A DNA stretch of 64,000 nucleotides, taken from contig NZ_CP032419.1 of the NCBI RefSeq assembly GCF_003595175.1, positions 4,092,001 through 4,156,000 of the forward strand, given 5' to 3'. Under the pieces are notes generated by a model. It did no database searches and was not told where the DNA came from. It saw only the letters and a list, made by a program, of their open reading frames with translations. The position numbers were made by a program, and so were the translations under genes. Shown here piece by piece: positions 51,013-63,864 of this stretch; the first letter of the stretch is position 1; every line of letters starts with the position of its first letter. Origin of the DNA: Pseudomonas cavernae (GTDB lineage Bacteria; Pseudomonadota; Gammaproteobacteria; Pseudomonadales; Pseudomonadaceae).

Positions 51013-51921
51013 TCAGACAGTCTTACCAGCAGACCCTTCAAGGATTTTGAAAAATACGGTCTCCAGCGAGACCGCTGGCTTGATAGTCAGCAGATGGCCG
51101 CCCAGCTGATTGAGCTGGGCGATAAAAGCCGGCAGCTCGGCCTGGGCCACCTCGCACTCGTACTCACCCACGCGCAACGCCTTGGCGTCAACCGCTATGG
51201 GCTGGTCGGCGCTGTAGCGCACGCTCATCTGGTCGGCACGCTCCGCGACCAACTCCCGCGGCGAGCGCACGGTGAGCAGTTCACCCTTGTTGATGAAACC
51301 GAACCGGTCGGCGATGCGCTCGACATCATGCAGTACGTGGGAGGTGAAGAAGATCGCGCCGCCCTGATGCTTGTATTCGTTGAGGATATCGACCACATCC
51401 TTGCGCCCGACCGGATCGAGGCCGGATAGCGGCTCGTCGAGCACCAGCAGCTTGGGCTGCACCACCATGGCATGAGCCAGCGCCACGCGCTGCACCGTGC
51501 CCTTAGACAGCTCGCGAATACGCCGCTTGGCCGAAGCCGCCACCGAGAAACGCTCCAGCCACTGCAAGCACCAAGCGTCGGCATCCTTGCGTTTGATGCC
51601 GTACATGGACAGACCCATGCGCAGGATTTCCAGCGGCGTGAACTGCTCGTAGAGTGCCGGCGCCTCCGGCACGTAGGCCAGATCTCGACGCGCCTCGGCG
51701 CGATGGGCGTCGATGCCGTACAGGCGCACCTCGCCCTGGTAATCGTTGATGATGTCGAGCATCACCTTGATGGTGGTGGACTTGCCGGCACCGTTGGGCC
51801 CGACGAAGCCGAACACCTCGCCCTCCACCAGGTTGAAACTGACGTCGCGCAGGGCGCGCACGTGCTTACCCTTGACGTGATACGTCTGGCTGACCCCTTT
51901 GAATTCCAGCGCCGCAGTCAA
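51013..51921 (-). CDS. ABC transporter ATP-binding protein (pilus-locus cassette)
   Basis: A 302-residue ATPase of the ABC-2/NatA type: Walker A GPNGAGKSTTI, signature LSKGTVQRVALAHAM, Walker B LLVLDEPLSGLDPVG, and switch histidine in FTSHVLHDVE. The C-terminal 80 residues form an accessory domain. The start is TTG overlapping the stop of the upstream gene (TTGA), with GGAG eight bases upstream. It is the last of three coupled genes with a permease. Position beside the pilin genes suggests a link with pilus assembly, comparable with the PilH ATPase of Myxococcus, but an unrelated efflux role is possible. Confidence 0.9.
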   Translation of the reverse strand: MTAALEFKGVSQTYHVKGKHVRALRDVSFNLVEGEVFGFVGPNGAGKSTTIKVMLDIINDYQGEVRLYGIDAHRAEARRDLAYVPEAPALYEQFTPLEILRMGLSMYGIKRKDADAWCLQWLERFSVAASAKRRIRELSKGTVQRVALAHAMVVQPKLLVLDEPLSGLDPVGRKDVVDILNEYKHQGGAIFFTSHVLHDVERIADRFGFINKGELLTVRSPRELVAERADQMSVRYSADQPIAVDAKALRVGEYECEVAQAELPAFIAQLNQLGGHLLTIKPAVSLETVFFKILEGSAGKTV

Positions 51922-52757
51922 GGCTGATTCTCCATCCCGGCAATCTTCAATTTCTTCAATTCGATACGCCCCTTGCTCAGCTCGTAGCCGAGGCGCAACG
52001 GGTCTTCCGGCAACGCCGACAATTCATGAGCGGCCACCAGCTGCTGCAGATCGGTCAGCGCACCATGGACCCGCTCGTAACGGCGCTGCGCATCGCGCAG
52101 GGCGACCAAGCCTTGCAGGCGAACGACGCGCTTGTCGAGCATACCGCGCAGCTTGGAGTCACTAGCGGCATCGCGCTGTTGAATCAAGTAATCCAGGGCC
52201 AACTTTTCATCCCTGAAGGTTTCCGCCTGCAGCATCACCGCCAGCTTGCGAAAACCTGCCGCATTGTTGGTCGCGCGCTGAGCCGCCAGTTCCAGCGCAC
52301 GGCTGGCCTCGGCAATATCCTTATTGAAAAACGCCTGGTTGAAGCCATAAAAAAACGCCGGCAGCTCATCCCAGAAACGGCACTGCATGGCCCGGCGCAG
52401 CACCTCAGTGCCCTCACGATCCGCCCCGCCCCAGGTGAGCAGACCGTTGGCCAGATAGTAGTTGTCTTCATGGCAGGGATTGAGCTCGGCCACCTCCTGC
52501 TGGGCACGGACCAGGTAGCCGGTATCCGCCTGCCCCCAGTCCACCCCGGTGGCGGCCAGGCGCATGGTTTCCAGGTTGGCCGCCAGGAAGCGGTCACCAC
52601 CGAACAGCGCCAGCAACACAGGCGCGGCGATCACCACCCGCCCCTCGATGACCGGCGCCGCCTGCTCGGGCACTTGGGCGCGCCACTGCGAGGCCACGGA
52701 AAACACACCAAACCCGAGCAGGGCCAGCAACAGGGGCAAGAGAGGTCGGCAGCGCAT
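51918..52757 (-). CDS. Membrane-anchored helical (TPR-like) protein of the ABC cassette
   Basis: A 279-residue protein with an N-terminal membrane anchor (LLPLLLALLGFGVFSVAS) and a periplasm-side or outside helical region. The repeats are loose TPR-like helices (for example DTGYLVRAQQEVAELNPCHEDN, RALELAAQRATNNAAGFRKLAV). I do not recognise a named family. It begins two bases after the permease stop and its stop overlaps the ATPase start, so the three are one operon. By position it could be an accessory subunit of the transporter, as PilG is proposed to be in Myxococcus. Confidence 0.75.
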   Translation of the reverse strand: MRCRPLLPLLLALLGFGVFSVASQWRAQVPEQAAPVIEGRVVIAAPVLLALFGGDRFLAANLETMRLAATGVDWGQADTGYLVRAQQEVAELNPCHEDNYYLANGLLTWGGADREGTEVLRRAMQCRFWDELPAFFYGFNQAFFNKDIAEASRALELAAQRATNNAAGFRKLAVMLQAETFRDEKLALDYLIQQRDAASDSKLRGMLDKRVVRLQGLVALRDAQRRYERVHGALTDLQQLVAAHELSALPEDPLRLGYELSKGRIELKKLKIAGMENQP

Positions 52758-52759
52758 GA

Positions 52760-53569
52760 TCAGCTGAATCGCTTGCGTTGCAGCGCCCACATCGACAGCG
52801 CCAGCAGGGCGATTGCATAGCCCAGGCTGGAGAGCAGCAACCAGGGCCAGTCGGCGGGGAGAAACTCCAGCTTGCCGTAGAGCGCGACCATGCGCACATC
52901 CAGCGCACCGAGATCCGGCAGCAGATAGCCCAGCACGCCCAGGCTGGCGCGATAGCCCCCGGCGTTGCTCACCAGCCCGGCATCGCGGCCGAGCAACTCG
53001 ACGATGGCGCCGTAGGAGCGCGCCACCAGCATAAAACCGAAGGTGCCGATCAAGACGAAGCTCGACGTCGAGGCCACCACCGCCAGCAGGGTCGCCAGCG
53101 CGGTTAGCACCAGCAGGTCGAGCGCGATGAAGACGCTGACGATCAGGTAGGGCTGGCCCAGCGCCACCGGCGTGGCCTGCGGGTAGATGCCAGCGATAAA
53201 TTGCACCAGGCCGACCTGCAACACGCCCAATGCCAGCAACAGGCCCAGCACCAGTGCCAGCACCGCGGCGAAACGGCCGAGCAACAGGTTGCGGCGTGCT
53301 CGCGGGTAGGTCAGCGAGCAGAGGTAATAGCGCTTGTCAAACTCGCGCGACAGCAGCTCCTGCACCAGCAGCACGATCAGCAGCGGCACCAGCAGGCGGA
53401 TGGTGGAAAAGCCCACATCCAGCGCCACAGTGACCGACTGGCGACCGCCGAAATAGGCGGACAACAGCGTGGCCAGCGTTACAACAATCAGGACGCCAGC
53501 AGCCATCCAGGCGAACTTCGCCTTAAGTGCCAGACGCAGTGCATTGAGGAAATCGCGAAAGATCGGCAT
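52760..53569 (-). CDS. ABC-2 type transporter permease (pilus-locus cassette)
   Basis: A 269-residue membrane protein with six hydrophobic segments. It begins MPIFRDFLNALRLALKAKFAWMAAG, has the ABC-2 permease pattern with a cytoplasmic loop LSREFDKRYYLCSLTYPRARRNLLLGRF after the second helix, and ends with a helix and WALQRKRFS. It is the first gene of the three-gene ABC operon (permease, helical protein, ATPase). The upstream 240 bases are AT-rich and contain the terminator of the preceding pilin-associated gene, so it probably has its own promoter. Confidence 0.87.
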   Translation of the reverse strand: MPIFRDFLNALRLALKAKFAWMAAGVLIVVTLATLLSAYFGGRQSVTVALDVGFSTIRLLVPLLIVLLVQELLSREFDKRYYLCSLTYPRARRNLLLGRFAAVLALVLGLLLALGVLQVGLVQFIAGIYPQATPVALGQPYLIVSVFIALDLLVLTALATLLAVVASTSSFVLIGTFGFMLVARSYGAIVELLGRDAGLVSNAGGYRASLGVLGYLLPDLGALDVRMVALYGKLEFLPADWPWLLLSSLGYAIALLALSMWALQRKRFS

Positions 53570-53765: not shown

Positions 53766-53790
53766 ATAAAAAGGGAGAGTTACCTCTCCC
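53766..53790 (-). terminator. Intrinsic terminator after the pilin pair
   Basis: A perfect stem GGGAGAG / CTCTCCC with a four-base loop and a T-rich tail on the minus strand lies 20 bases after the stop of the 145-residue gene. It ends the short-pilin transcript before the ABC operon. Confidence 0.9.
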
Positions 53791-53810: not shown

Positions 53811-54248
53811 TCAAGGTATTGCAGGCAAGTTCGCAGTTGCACGACCTTCCGCAAGAGCAGCAGTGCAAGCTGCGCCACCCGGATACTGCGACGTAACAGT
53901 GCCCGCCAAAGTGGTTGCAGAGGCATAAGCTGGCCCTGTCGTCACAGTTGGGGCAGTAGTTGTGCAGTCTTCATTGCCGTTAAGACCAGTAGCAGCATTA
54001 CCATCAGTATTAACGCACACAGGAACAGAGCGCTGAGTCGTTCGACCGGCCGTATGGCATGCAGATATTGCAACTGCACGAGCATTACAGGAAACACCCG
54101 CCGCGACCCCGCTGCTCACACTTATAGACACGTCCTCGTTCAAAAGAGCGCAATCAGCAATACGAACAACCCCAGTAGCTGGAAGCTGTACAGCAGACGC
54201 TGCTCCAGACGCCATCAGACCTGCAAGCAACAAAGTAATTTTTTTCAT
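53811..54248 (-). CDS. Sec-exported six-cysteine protein next to the short pilin (candidate pilin globular domain)
   Basis: A 145-residue protein with a clear Sec signal peptide (MKKITLLLAGLMASGAASA) and a mature part of about 126 residues. It has six cysteines, at IADCALL, VSCNARA, SACHTAG, VPVCVNT, EDCTTTA and AACTAAL, an even number fitting three disulfides. The mature part is rich in Thr, Ala, Gly and Val and looks beta-strand-forming; no membrane helix is left after cleavage. I know no named family. It starts 22 bases after the short pilin stop with its own GGAG site, and is followed by a terminator, so the two are one transcript. By layout it resembles PilA-C, the partner of a helix-only pilin. 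Confidence 0.8.
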   Translation of the reverse strand: MKKITLLLAGLMASGAASAVQLPATGVVRIADCALLNEDVSISVSSGVAAGVSCNARAVAISACHTAGRTTQRSVPVCVNTDGNAATGLNGNEDCTTTAPTVTTGPAYASATTLAGTVTSQYPGGAACTAALAEGRATANLPAIP

Positions 54249-54270
54249 TTCTATGTCTCCAGAGTACTGA

Positions 54271-54456
54271 TTAGCGCAGCGATGAAATAATTGCGGTAAT
54301 ACCATTCTTAGCATCAGCTACCGCGGACGTATCGTTAGCCTTGGCGCGATATTCATTGAACTGCGGAATGGCGATAGCGGCCAGAATGCCGATGATCGCG
54401 ATCACGATCATCAGCTCGATCAGGGTAAAGCCTTTTTGCTTCTTGAGGGACTTCAT
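54271..54456 (-). CDS. pilA: Short type IVa pilin consisting of the N-terminal helix only
   Basis: A 61-residue prepilin. The leader MKSLKKQKG is nine residues, and PilD is expected to cut before [20 protein letters not shown]; Glu5 of the mature protein is present. The mature chain is about 52 residues, so it is the alpha1 helix without the globular head. Normal Pseudomonas PilA is about 140-150 residues. The stop is a true TAA; downstream comes a new ribosome binding site and a separate signal peptide, so this is not a frameshifted pilin. AGGAG lies before the ATG, and a sigma-54-type promoter before that. It is divergent from pilB, the normal position of pilA. Confidence 0.9.
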
Positions 54457-54501: not shown

Positions 54502-54517
54502 TGCAGGTGCCATGCCA
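54502..54517 (-). promoter_or_regulatory. Sigma-54 (RpoN) promoter of the short pilin gene
   Basis: On the minus strand TGGCATGGCACCTGCA matches the -24/-12 consensus TGGCACGnnnnTTGCA, with GG and GC twelve bases apart. It lies about 45 bases before the pilA start. pilA genes of Pseudomonas use RpoN with PilSR, which supports the call. Confidence 0.75.
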
Positions 54518-54682
54518 ACACCCAACAACCCAGCCAACAGACACTTCGGCATTTCGCCCCTCACCGCTAGCCACTCAACGAAGTCATCAACTGACACTTT
54601 TGGTCACCTCAAATTGCAGCGCTTGGGCTTTACTGCCTCATTGGGCTATAACAGCGCCATCCTCCTCCTTGCGTATACACAA

Positions 54683-56386
54683 ATGAACGACAGCGTCTCT
54701 CTCTCAGGCCTGGCCCGGCAGATGGTGCTGGCCGAATTGCTGGATGAAAAAAGCGCACAGCAAGCCCAGCAGCAGGCCCAGCGCAACAAGCTGCCGCTGG
54801 TCACCTACCTGGTGCAGAACAAGCTGGTGAAGAGCCGTGCCCTGGCCGAACTGGCCGCCGAGCAGTTCGGCGTGGCCTTCGTCGACCTCAACTGCATTGA
54901 TAAAGAGGGGCAGCCCAGGGAACTTGTCAGTGAGAAGCTGATCCGCCAACACCGCGCGCTGCCACTCTGGCGGCGCGGCAACAAGCTGTTCGTCGCCCTG
55001 TCCGACCCCAGCAATCACCAAGCGGTCACCGATATCCAGTTCAGCACCGGGCTGACCACCGAAGCCATCCTGGTGGAGGACGACAAGCTGGGCGACGCCA
55101 TCGAGAAATTTTTCGAGACCGCCAACAGCGGCCTGGAGGAACTCGCCGATGTCGATCTGGACGGCCTGGATATCGAAGCGGTCGATGATGACAAGCAAGA
55201 CAGTGTCGCCGGTCAGGACGCAGACGACGCTCCGGTGGTGCGCTTCGTCAACAAGATGCTGCTGGACGCCATCAAGGGCGGCTCGTCCGACCTGCACTTC
55301 GAGCCCTACGAGAAGGCCTATCGTGTCCGCTTTCGCACCGACGGAATCCTCCACGAAGTGGCCCGCCCGCCAATCCAGCTGGCACCGCGCATCTCCGCCC
55401 GCCTCAAGGTGATGGCGGCGCTGGACATCTCCGAGCGGCGCAGGCCGCAGGACGGCCGGATCAAGATGAAGGTGTCGAAGACCAAGGCCATCGACTTCCG
55501 CGTCAACACCCTGCCGACCCTGTGGGGCGAGAAGATCGTGATGCGGATCCTCGACCCCACCAGCGCGCAGATGGGTATCGATGCACTGGGTTACGAGGAA
55601 AACCAGAAAGACCTGTACATGGCCGCTCTCAAGCAACCGCAGGGCATGATCCTGGTCACCGGCCCCACCGGCTCGGGCAAGACCGTGTCGCTTTATACCG
55701 GCCTGAATATTCTCAACACGATCGACGTGAACATCTCCACCGCCGAAGACCCGGTGGAAATCAACCTGGAGGGGATCAATCAGGTCAACGTCAACCCCAA
55801 GCAGGGCATGGACTTCTCCCAGGCCCTGCGCGCCTTCCTGCGCCAAGACCCGGACATCATCATGGTCGGCGAGATCCGCGACCTGGAAACCGCGGAAATC
55901 GCCATCAAGGCCGCGCAGACCGGCCACATGGTGATGTCGACCCTGCACACCAACAGCGCCGCGGAGACCCTGACCCGCCTGCGCAATATGGGGGTGCCGT
56001 CATTCAACATCGCCACCTCGGTCAACCTGATCATCGCCCAGCGTCTGGCGCGCAAGCTGTGCAGCCACTGCAAGAAGGCCGTCCAGATCCCTCACGAAGC
56101 ACTGCTTCACGAGGGCTTCCCGGAAGACAAGATCGGCAGCTTCAAGCTCTATGGCCCGGTCGGCTGCGAGAATTGCAAGGGTGGCTACAAGGGCCGAGTC
56201 GGGATTTATGAAGTGGTTAAAAACACCCCGGCGCTGCAGCGGATTATCATGGAAGAAGGCAACTCCATCGATATTGCCGCGCAGATGCGCCAGGATGGCT
56301 TCAACGACTTGCGCGCATCCGGTTTGCTGAAAGCCATGCAAGGCATCACCAGCCTCGAAGAGGTCAACCGCGTGACCAAGGACTAA
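54683..56386 (+). CDS. pilB: Type IV pilus assembly ATPase PilB
   Basis: A 567-residue extension ATPase. The N-terminal domain spans about 1-170, followed by the core: Walker A GPTGSGKT, Asp box region and Walker B IIMVGEIRDLETAEIAIKAA, His box HMVMSTLHTNSAAETLTRL. The zinc-binding cysteines are CSHC and CENC. The start at 54683 (MNDSVSLSGLARQM) gives family length; the frame is open further upstream into the pilA promoter. It powers pilus extension at the inner membrane with PilC. Confidence 0.96.
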   Translation: MNDSVSLSGLARQMVLAELLDEKSAQQAQQQAQRNKLPLVTYLVQNKLVKSRALAELAAEQFGVAFVDLNCIDKEGQPRELVSEKLIRQHRALPLWRRGNKLFVALSDPSNHQAVTDIQFSTGLTTEAILVEDDKLGDAIEKFFETANSGLEELADVDLDGLDIEAVDDDKQDSVAGQDADDAPVVRFVNKMLLDAIKGGSSDLHFEPYEKAYRVRFRTDGILHEVARPPIQLAPRISARLKVMAALDISERRRPQDGRIKMKVSKTKAIDFRVNTLPTLWGEKIVMRILDPTSAQMGIDALGYEENQKDLYMAALKQPQGMILVTGPTGSGKTVSLYTGLNILNTIDVNISTAEDPVEINLEGINQVNVNPKQGMDFSQALRAFLRQDPDIIMVGEIRDLETAEIAIKAAQTGHMVMSTLHTNSAAETLTRLRNMGVPSFNIATSVNLIIAQRLARKLCSHCKKAVQIPHEALLHEGFPEDKIGSFKLYGPVGCENCKGGYKGRVGIYEVVKNTPALQRIIMEEGNSIDIAAQMRQDGFNDLRASGLLKAMQGITSLEEVNRVTKD

Positions 56387-56515: not shown

Positions 56516-57733
56516 ATGGCTGAAAAAGCATTAAAAACCAGTGTGTTTACCTGGGAAGGTACAGACAAGAAGGGCGCCCGCATCAAGGGTGAACTGAGAG
56601 GTCAAAATCCCGCCCTGATCAAGGCACAGTTGCGCAAACAGGGCATCAACCCGACCAAGGTGCGCAAGAGGTCCGTCTCGCTGTTCGGCGCCGGCAAGAA
56701 GATCAAGCCCATGGATATCGCCCTGTTCACCCGGCAGATGGCGACCATGATGAAGGCCGGTGTACCGCTGCTGCAGAGTTTCGACATCATCGGCGAAGGT
56801 TTCGACAACCCCAACATGCGCAAGCTGGTGGACGAGCTCAAGCAGGAAGTGGCCGCAGGCAACAGCTTCGCCAGTTCCTTGCGCAAGAAGCCCGAATACT
56901 TCGACGATCTCTACTGCAACCTGGTGGACGCAGGCGAGCAGTCTGGCTCCCTGGAAGCGCTGCTCGATCGCGTCGCCACCTACAAGGAGAAGACCGAGGC
57001 GCTCAAGGCCAAGATCAAGAAGGCGATGAACTATCCGATTGCGGTGATCGTGGTGGCCGTCATCGTTACTGCCATTCTGTTGATCAAAGTGGTGCCACAG
57101 TTCAAGGCGGTATTCGAGGGCTTCGGGGCCGAACTGCCAGCATTTACCCTTATGGTGGTGGGCGCTTCCGAATTCCTTCAGGAATGGTGGTTTCTTTTCT
57201 TGGCCGCCATCATTGGCGCGGTGTTTGTGTTCAAGGAGGCACACAAACGCTCGGAGAAATTCCGCAACTGGGTAGACCGCACCCTGCTCAAACTGCCCAT
57301 CGTCGGCGACATCCTCTATAAATCGGCGATAGCCCGTTTCGCACGAACGCTCTCCACCACCTTCGCCGCCGGCGTACCGCTGGTCGATGCACTCGATTCG
57401 GTGGCCGGTGCCACCGGCAACGTGGTTTTCCGCACCGCCACCAACAAAGTCAAAAGCGACGTGTCGACCGGCATGCAGCTCAACTTCTCCATGCGCACCA
57501 CCGGCGTCTTTCCCTCCATGGCAATACAAATGACCGCCATCGGCGAAGAATCCGGTGCGCTGGATGAGATGCTCAGCAAGGTAGCGACATTCTACGAGGA
57601 CGAAGTGGATAACATGGTCGACGGCCTGACCGCGCTGATGGAGCCCATAATCATGTCCGTGCTCGGCGTGCTGGTCGGCGGCCTGGTGATTGCCATGTAC
57701 CTGCCCATCTTCCAACTCGGCAACGTTATCTAA
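56516..57733 (+). CDS. pilC: Type IV pilus inner-membrane platform protein PilC
   Basis: A 405-residue GspF-family platform protein with three transmembrane helices. It has the N-terminal FTWEGTDKKGARIKGELRG, the two cytoplasmic T2SSF domains (first MDIALFTRQMATMMKAGVPLLQSFDII, second SAIARFARTLSTTFAAGVPLVDALD), and ends with IAMYLPIFQLGNVI. It connects PilB to the pilin subunits. The ATG follows an AGGGCGCAGAG site. A 129-base gap follows pilB; pilD begins two bases after its stop. Confidence 0.96.
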   Translation: MAEKALKTSVFTWEGTDKKGARIKGELRGQNPALIKAQLRKQGINPTKVRKRSVSLFGAGKKIKPMDIALFTRQMATMMKAGVPLLQSFDIIGEGFDNPNMRKLVDELKQEVAAGNSFASSLRKKPEYFDDLYCNLVDAGEQSGSLEALLDRVATYKEKTEALKAKIKKAMNYPIAVIVVAVIVTAILLIKVVPQFKAVFEGFGAELPAFTLMVVGASEFLQEWWFLFLAAIIGAVFVFKEAHKRSEKFRNWVDRTLLKLPIVGDILYKSAIARFARTLSTTFAAGVPLVDALDSVAGATGNVVFRTATNKVKSDVSTGMQLNFSMRTTGVFPSMAIQMTAIGEESGALDEMLSKVATFYEDEVDNMVDGLTALMEPIIMSVLGVLVGGLVIAMYLPIFQLGNVI

Positions 57734-57735
57734 AA

Positions 57736-58608
57736 ATGCCTGTTCTCGACCTTCTGGCCAGCCATGTGCTGGCCTTTGTTTTGTGCGCCCTGGTGCTCGG
57801 CCTGCTGGTCGGTAGCTTCCTCAACGTGGTGATCCACCGCCTTCCGAAGATGATGCTCAGCGACTGGAAGGCTCAGGCCCGGGAAGTGCTCGACCTGCCT
57901 GCCGAATCGAGCGGCGCCCGCTTCAACCTGATCCTGCCGAACTCGCACTGCCCGGCCTGCGGCCACGAGATCAAGCCGTGGGAAAACATCCCGCTGTTGA
58001 GCTATCTGGCCCTGCGCGGCAAATGCTCGGCCTGCAAGGCGCCCATCAGCCCGCGCTACCCCCTGGTGGAGCTGGCGTGCGGCCTGCTGTCGGCCTATGT
58101 CGCCTGGCACTTCGGTTTCAGCTGGCAGGGCGGCACCATGCTGCTGCTGACCTGGGGGCTGTTGGCGATGAGCCTGATCGATGCCGACCACCAATTGCTG
58201 CCCGATGCCCTGGTGCTGCCGCTGCTGTGGCTGGGCCTGATCCTCAACCAGTTCGGCCTGTTCGCCAGCCTGGCGGATGCTTTGTGGGGGGCGATCGCCG
58301 GCTATCTCAGCCTGTGGTCGGTGTACTGGCTGTTCAAGCTGGTCACCGGCAAGGAAGGCATGGGCTATGGCGACTTCAAGTTGCTGGCCATGCTCGGCGC
58401 CTGGGGCGGCTGGCAGATCCTGCCGCTGACCATCCTACTGTCCTCGCTGGTCGGTGCGGTGCTGGGGGTGATCATGCTGCGCCTGCGCAATGCCGAAACC
58501 AGCACGCCCATCCCGTTCGGCCCCTACCTGGCAATTGCCGGCTGGATCGCTTTGCTCTGGGGTGATCAAATAACCGGAACCTATCTCCAGTTCGCCGGTT
58601 TCAAATAA
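57736..58608 (+). CDS. pilD: Prepilin leader peptidase / N-methyltransferase PilD
   Basis: A 290-residue membrane aspartyl protease that removes class III leader peptides and methylates the new N-terminal phenylalanine. The zinc cysteines are Cys72, Cys75, Cys97 and Cys100 (HCPACGHE and KCSACKAP). The catalytic aspartates are Asp149 (SLIDADHQLLPD) and Asp213 (MGYGDFK). It would process the short pilin and type II secretion pseudopilins. It starts two bases after the pilC stop. Confidence 0.97.
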   Translation: MPVLDLLASHVLAFVLCALVLGLLVGSFLNVVIHRLPKMMLSDWKAQAREVLDLPAESSGARFNLILPNSHCPACGHEIKPWENIPLLSYLALRGKCSACKAPISPRYPLVELACGLLSAYVAWHFGFSWQGGTMLLLTWGLLAMSLIDADHQLLPDALVLPLLWLGLILNQFGLFASLADALWGAIAGYLSLWSVYWLFKLVTGKEGMGYGDFKLLAMLGAWGGWQILPLTILLSSLVGAVLGVIMLRLRNAETSTPIPFGPYLAIAGWIALLWGDQITGTYLQFAGFK

Positions 58609-63621: not shown

Positions 63622-63697
63622 TGGTGGGTCGTGTAGGATTCGAACCTACGACCAATTGGTTAAAAGCCAACTGCTCTACCAACTGAGCTAACGACCC
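63622..63697 (-). tRNA. tRNA-Lys (anticodon TTT)
   Basis: A 76-base gene with encoded CCA. Acceptor stem GGGTCGT / ACGACCC, anticodon loop CTTTTAA with anticodon TTT, and T-arm GTTCGAATC. Confidence 0.97.
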
Positions 63698-63702
63698 AAA
63701 AA

Positions 63703-63779
63703 TGGTCGGGGTAGGGGGATTCGAACTCCCGACATCCTGCTCCCAAAGCAGGCGCGCTACCGGACTGCGCTATACCCCG
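63703..63779 (-). tRNA. tRNA-Pro (anticodon TGG)
   Basis: A 77-base gene with encoded CCA. Acceptor stem CGGGGTA / TACCCCG, anticodon loop TTTGGGA with anticodon TGG, T-arm GTTCGAATC. Confidence 0.97.
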
Positions 63780-63788
63780 GCTGGAATT

Positions 63789-63864
63789 TGGCTCCGCGAC
63801 CTGGACTCGAACCAGGGACCCAATGATTAACAGTCATTTGCTCTACCGACTGAGCTATCGCGGA
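63789..63864 (-). tRNA. tRNA-Asn (anticodon GTT)
   Basis: A 76-base gene with encoded CCA. Acceptor stem TCCGCGA / TCGCGGA, anticodon loop CTGTTAA with anticodon GTT, T-arm GTTCGAGTC. It is the first gene of the Asn-Pro-Lys transcript. Confidence 0.97.

Follow-up and report, generated by a model that had tools for sequence, protein, structure and literature searches.

Two short genes occupy the pilA position in the stretch of the Pseudomonas cavernae chromosome analysed here, which is 64,000 nucleotides long (NZ_CP032419.1, positions 4,092,001 to 4,156,000) and is hereafter called the window. The source genome is a single contig of 4.95 Mb, rated 100% complete. The two genes, a candidate split-pilin operon, and the signals around them are as follows.

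54503..54518, minus strand: candidate promoter of the RpoN (sigma-54) type, TTGGCAT-GGCAC-CTGC, some 61 nucleotides before the start of the short pilA
54271..54456, minus strand: pilA-N, helix-only major prepilin of 61 residues (Pfam N_methyl, 45.7 bits)
53811..54248, minus strand: pilA-C-like partner of 145 residues with a Sec-type signal, six cysteines and a predicted beta-sheet domain
53773..53790, minus strand: intrinsic terminator-like hairpin with a T-run, 3' of the partner

The first-pass annotation of this DNA had claimed a helix-only pilA with a nine-residue leader and about 52 mature residues. Translation confirms this, giving a class III leader of nine residues and a mature part of 52, and a Pfam search of the 61-mer returns N_methyl alone. 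The best Protein Data Bank (PDB) matches of PilA-N are the Geobacter 'Geopilin domain 1' chains 7tgg_A, 9egp_A and 2m7g_A. The description of the second gene in the first-pass annotation also stands: its start codon lies 22 nucleotides past the pilA-N stop and is preceded by GGAGA, its own ribosome binding site, and the N-terminus of its product, MKKITLLLAGLMASGAASA, is a Sec-like signal as judged by eye. All six cysteines are C-terminal of the presumed cleavage site, and the mature protein is probably disulfide-bonded. The 145-mer matches no Pfam or NCBIfam family. The terminator that follows is credible because of its position and not its rarity, since the scan finds three of these hairpins over 1.3 kb, where shuffles give an expectation of 1.6.

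The pair recurs. When 298 genomes of the same genus were searched with the partner (E 0.001), 13 yielded a homologue, our own included, and a 61-residue pilin lies directly upstream in all 13, which places the pairing beyond chance. The reverse search with the short pilin (E 1e-13) matched 64 of the same 298 genomes, 22 of them with a pilin of 60-61 residues and 42 with a longer open frame. The longer class comprises open frames of at least 121 residues; seven were translated and gave 113-144 residues, and L063 was not recovered by the script. Further short-pilin loci came from 198 genomes of the family (18 loci) and 398 of the phylum (3, with one more match, in G846, set aside at an open frame of 81 residues), and named genome contigs contributed eight loci, of which two are new and six repeat genomes already counted. 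The resulting 45 loci are spread over Pseudomonadaceae and a single further family of the phylum. All 45 have a partner that looks exported, is 135-206 residues long and starts 11-35 nucleotides downstream of the pilin, after two partner starts were shifted by hand from an upstream ATG to an MKK start; the 206-residue case (L096) contains a masked or unread stretch. A search beside short pilins in other genomes, as proposed in the first-pass annotation, gave a partner at every locus examined. The partners comprise 43 distinct sequences. The short pilin, at 56-65 residues, is near-constant in length and sequence.

Several variants of this arrangement were observed. In L031 (G317), two tandem partner genes (1501-1965 and 2044-2472) follow a single short pilin. 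Ten of the 45 split-pilin loci have another helix-only pilin behind the partner, 546-665 nucleotides past the end of the first pilin (L051, L052, L053, L054, which is from the genome of L029, L057 from that of L027, L058 from that of L028, L076, L078, L079 and L082). A second partner type has two cysteines only (L059-L062, L084, L085, L087 and L088), with the motif KGYxVFTGSSVGGSxSQCG in L059 and its relatives, and pairs with a distinct short pilin, AIPQFQ[DE]YQAKGYDKS. In the other family of the phylum (mostly f78, small genomes), split pilins (L095-L097) and one-piece pilins (L098-L119) have similar helices.

Rates of evolution differ between the two proteins. For 15 loci close to this one, compared in 105 pairs, the PilA-N helix has a median identity of 90% and a median ratio of nonsynonymous to synonymous substitution rates (dN/dS) of 0.07 (91 usable pairs); the partner has a median identity of 47% (range 36-83%) and a dN/dS of 0.25 (75 usable pairs). 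Both genes are under purifying selection and code for real proteins; PilA-N changes as a buried core would, and the partner as an exposed surface would. A reading of the short pilA as the remnant of a full-length pilin, beside a secreted protein that has nothing to do with it, is next to impossible. The 61-mer does retain the helix only, but a pilin of nearly the same sequence has the same kind of neighbour at every locus, at a median dN/dS of 0.07, and a pseudogene is rejected on this conservation. The partner might instead be a periplasmic protein dedicated to chaperoning or stabilising the short pilin, with a pilus built of helices only, and the genetic linkage would then look identical. 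However, a chaperone for so conserved a helix would be expected to be conserved as well, yet the partner varies as an exposed surface does, and the solved Geobacter filaments contain both chains (PMC12954529; 7tgg, 9egp). We regard the chaperone as unlikely.

What the partner resembles is suggested by several comparisons, each modest alone. The top PDB match of the combined partner-family profile (A6) is 9egp_B, 'Geopilin domain 2', which is Geobacter PilA-C (E 0.0056); the next match is unrelated (E 0.014). Without the signal peptide, 5-7 of 2000 shuffles score equally high. Among the limited set of solved proteins used for fold comparison, the top VIA-align match of the AF2 model of the window partner is 7tgg_a and that of its L037 homologue is 9egp_B, both Geobacter PilA-C. 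The profile and the two predicted structures agree in placing Geobacter PilA-C at the top, and the partner is predicted to have the PilA-C fold. This is the one point on which the first-pass annotation has to be corrected, as it had called the globular partner unrelated-looking. Foldseek alone gave no significant PDB match for the partner models, Pfam, NCBIfam and single-sequence PDB searches with the partners yielded no convincing family, and a tblastn search of plasmids with the window partner had no match. A direct match to Geobacter PilA-C also failed for the two-cysteine type (L059 and relatives) and for the first type alone; the combined profile A6 alone reached it. The two partner types aligned by hhalign over their full length reach a probability of 86% over 25 columns; for the mature sequences it is about 15%, with 0/100 column shuffles as high. 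The partner against the C-terminal domains of the f78 one-piece pilins gives 10-13%, again with 0/100 shuffles as high. We take these alignments of the two types and of the one-piece pilins as hints and not as proof. A pilus-borne adhesin or a pilus-secreted substrate, in place of a structural cap, would suit a protein that is variable and exported-looking. Such a role is nevertheless highly improbable, as the partner lies 3' of every one of the 45 short pilins and its top matches are to PilA-C, a structural subunit.

The surroundings of the operon comprise the pilus assembly genes, a module of the ATP-binding cassette (ABC) type and a tRNA cluster.

54683..56386, plus strand: pilB, transcribed away from pilA-N, with a start codon picked by eye (TIGR02538, 858 bits, above cut-off, in the enclosing open reading frame 54512-56386)
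56516..57733, plus strand: pilC (T2SSF, two stretches)
57736..58608, plus strand: pilD prepilin peptidase (A24_N_bact, Peptidase_A24)
52760..53569, minus strand: ABC-2-type permease-like membrane protein (ABC2_membrane_4, E 2.2e-5, 25 bits, under the Pfam cut-off of 27)
51918..52790, minus strand: third ABC-module gene, encoding 290 residues with what looks by eye like a hydrophobic segment at the N-terminus (no Pfam match at E 0.1)
51013..51921, minus strand: ABC transporter ATPase (ABC_tran, E 1.3e-28, above the Pfam cut-off)
63625-63864, minus strand: three consecutive tRNA genes

Elsewhere in the genome, three PilT-family ATPases score above cut-off, two of them adjacent at 313-315 kb and the third away from this pair (G000:C1:2435924-2436943), and PilQ is present. 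A full-length pilA elsewhere, named in the first-pass annotation among the findings that would speak against a split pilin, did not turn up in the complete genome. PF00114 has no match there, three PilE-sized pilins are ComP_DUS minor pilins, and the other N_methyl proteins, of which there are 16 in all, resemble minor pilins or pseudopilins by eye; no full-length major pilin was found among them. By eye, the genome holds two minor-pilin clusters and a pseudopilin set resembling that of a type II secretion system (T2SS). The minor-pilin clusters and a separate pilin pair lie at G000:C1:4171090-4184837 and 656942-657420.

These genes bear on whether both proteins form a short periplasmic secretion pseudopilus and no surface pilus, as proposed for Geobacter PilA-N/PilA-C by Gu et al. 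2021 (as reported in PMC8844916). The ABC module adjoining the operon would fit a secretion role. Against it, the T2SS-like pseudopilins form a set of their own, PilT-family ATPases and PilQ are present while another major pilin was not found, and the operon is located beside pilBCD and has an RpoN motif of the pilA type. A pseudopilus is, in our judgement, quite unlikely.

The canonical pilA of Pseudomonas has an RpoN-type promoter and is under RpoN control. In the window, the site ahead of pilA-N is TTGGCATGGCACCTGC, recognised by the RpoN consensus. The pattern TTGGCAYNNNNNYTGC has this single match in the window, and 26/100 shuffles also show one match. Upstream of the short-pilA genes, an RpoN-like motif is present at 34 of the 45 loci, mostly at 61-66 nucleotides, against 2/2250 in the mononucleotide-shuffled control; the motif was picked after inspection of two of these upstream regions. 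It is absent from 7/8 loci of the two-cysteine type (type B).

The ABC module follows the split pilin closely. Its ATPase, permease and third protein lie downstream of pilA-N on the same strand, and a permease homologue is found in 22/22 short-pilin genomes of the genus versus 0/42 longer-pilin genomes. It falls inside the examined stretch of 44/45 short-pilin loci, the exception being L086, and is found in 0/32 longer-pilin loci with flanks of up to 1.5 kb. In Myxococcus xanthus, the pilGHI genes adjoin pilA. PilG, PilH and PilI make up an ABC system there that is needed along with pilA for pilus biogenesis and is called essential for pilin translocation (PMC3724824). The module here is like PilGHI in gene content and position; the PilA of M. 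xanthus is large and in one piece. In another survey, PilGHI-like matches were reported in almost all bacteria covered, and experimental support was called lacking (PMC6060248).

To follow the pilin type through the genus, we built trees from 30 genomes selected by hand, 15 from the 22 that have a split pilin and 15 from the 42 with a longer one. In the gyrB trees, all split pilins fall inside one 18-genome clade that includes three longer-pilin genomes. Pilin type needs four changes on these trees versus about ten with shuffled labels, and the well-supported branches force at least four (protein) or at least three (DNA). The changes may be one gain and three reversions. An upstream pilB was found by search in all 30 genomes. 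The pilB tree needs only two changes, compatible with one origin, and the PilB of the three longer-pilin genomes stays within the same clade. This points to a pilB locus that remained in place while the type of pilin there was switched.

Among known systems, the closest is PilA-N/PilA-C of the metal-respiring Geobacter (GSU1496/GSU1497; PDB 7TGG, 9EGP, 6VK9), where a helix-only prepilin is likewise encoded beside a separately exported globular partner (PMC5174107). In cryo-electron microscopy of the Geobacter filament, PilA-N and PilA-C are present in equal parts (PMC12954529). Whether this filament counts as a pilus, as a pseudopilus or as something that mutants make incidentally has been disputed for years, a debate mixed with the nanowire question (PMC8844916, PMC9207759, PMC12954529). 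The present pair differs in its mature sizes, 52 and 126 residues against 61 and 104 in Geobacter (PMC11046646), in the six cysteines of its partner (relatives have two to eight, and the aligned stretch of mature Geobacter PilA-C has none), in its fewer helix aromatics, in its genus and phylum-level lineage, and in the second helix-only pilin found at some loci. For the short pilins of Geobacter, aromatic residues are listed at mature positions 1, 24, 27, 32 and 57 (PMC5174107). Mature PilA-N has F1, F24 and Y27 only; position 32 is Asn and the protein ends at 52. Because two of the five listed positions are missing, an electron-conducting pilus is not expected, in keeping with the earlier remark that few aromatics disfavour it.

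In Acinetobacter genomosp. 16, the host of phage AP205, the type IV pilin also contributes a helix and a globular chain to the filament, but these come from one gene product cut at Gly78/Ser79, not from two genes (PMC10980823). The canonical one-piece PilA of Pseudomonas (PF00114) shares the pilB/pilC/pilD locus and the machinery; in the split pilin, the globular domain is not in the same polypeptide. A 2016 survey lists truncated Pseudomonas pilins, and its partner analysis, as excerpted, covers eight Geobacter genomes and names no Pseudomonas partner (PMC5174107). A 2024 set of 1,955 type IVa major pilins spans 42-297 mature residues and names the G. sulfurreducens pilin as heterodimeric (PMC11046646). 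In the open-licence full texts searched, we found no account of a Pseudomonas with a split pilin or with a PilA-C partner. In Stutzerimonas balearica, a gene upstream of pilB is reported to have only 39% identity to PilAI (PMC10234333) and may encode a split pilin of the present kind.

Taken together, the product of the operon is most probably a type IVa major pilin in two parts, akin to Geobacter PilA-N/PilA-C and assembled along the lines set out below. The linkage at all 45 loci, the failure to find a full-length major pilin, and the conserved helix with its faster-evolving partner support the two-part pilin that the first-pass annotation had proposed. New here are the lineage, the cysteine-rich partner, the tight link to the ABC module and, at some loci, the second helix-only pilin. 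PilA-N would enter the inner membrane and have its leader removed by PilD. PilA-C would be exported by Sec, lose its signal and fold in the periplasm into a disulfide-bonded beta-sheet domain, which would bind the periplasmic half of the PilA-N helix and complete the pilin fold. PilB and PilC would then polymerise the heterodimer into a surface pilus with a PilA-N core and a variable PilA-C surface, and PilT-type ATPases would retract it. In this scheme, docking, stoichiometry and retraction are carried over largely from Geobacter, and we infer that both proteins assemble jointly in the filament. The PilGHI-like ABC transporter would probably be needed for the export, stability or assembly of the two-part pilin.

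A broader proposal is more tentative, and we hold it with somewhat more doubt than belief. A gammaproteobacterial lineage would make retractile surface pili from two separately exported proteins with a dedicated need for a PilGHI-like ABC transporter, and a cassette of pilA-N, pilA-C and the ABC genes would interchange with a one-piece pilA at pilBCD. The second helix-only pilin, present in about one fifth of the loci, may share the partner, and the filament may then be mixed.

A split pilin in easily grown bacteria other than Geobacter would make the two-chain design testable apart from electron transfer, as the Pseudomonas version comes with twitching-type machinery and is missing some of the aromatics linked to conduction. 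Its tight association with the ABC module gives such modules, known from Myxococcus, a concrete candidate role. The family that holds both split and one-piece pilins (L095-L119) lends itself to the study of fission or fusion. Since the partner matches no Pfam or NCBIfam model, its gene is presumably annotated as hypothetical, in which case the principal surface of the pilus in these bacteria would escape recognition.
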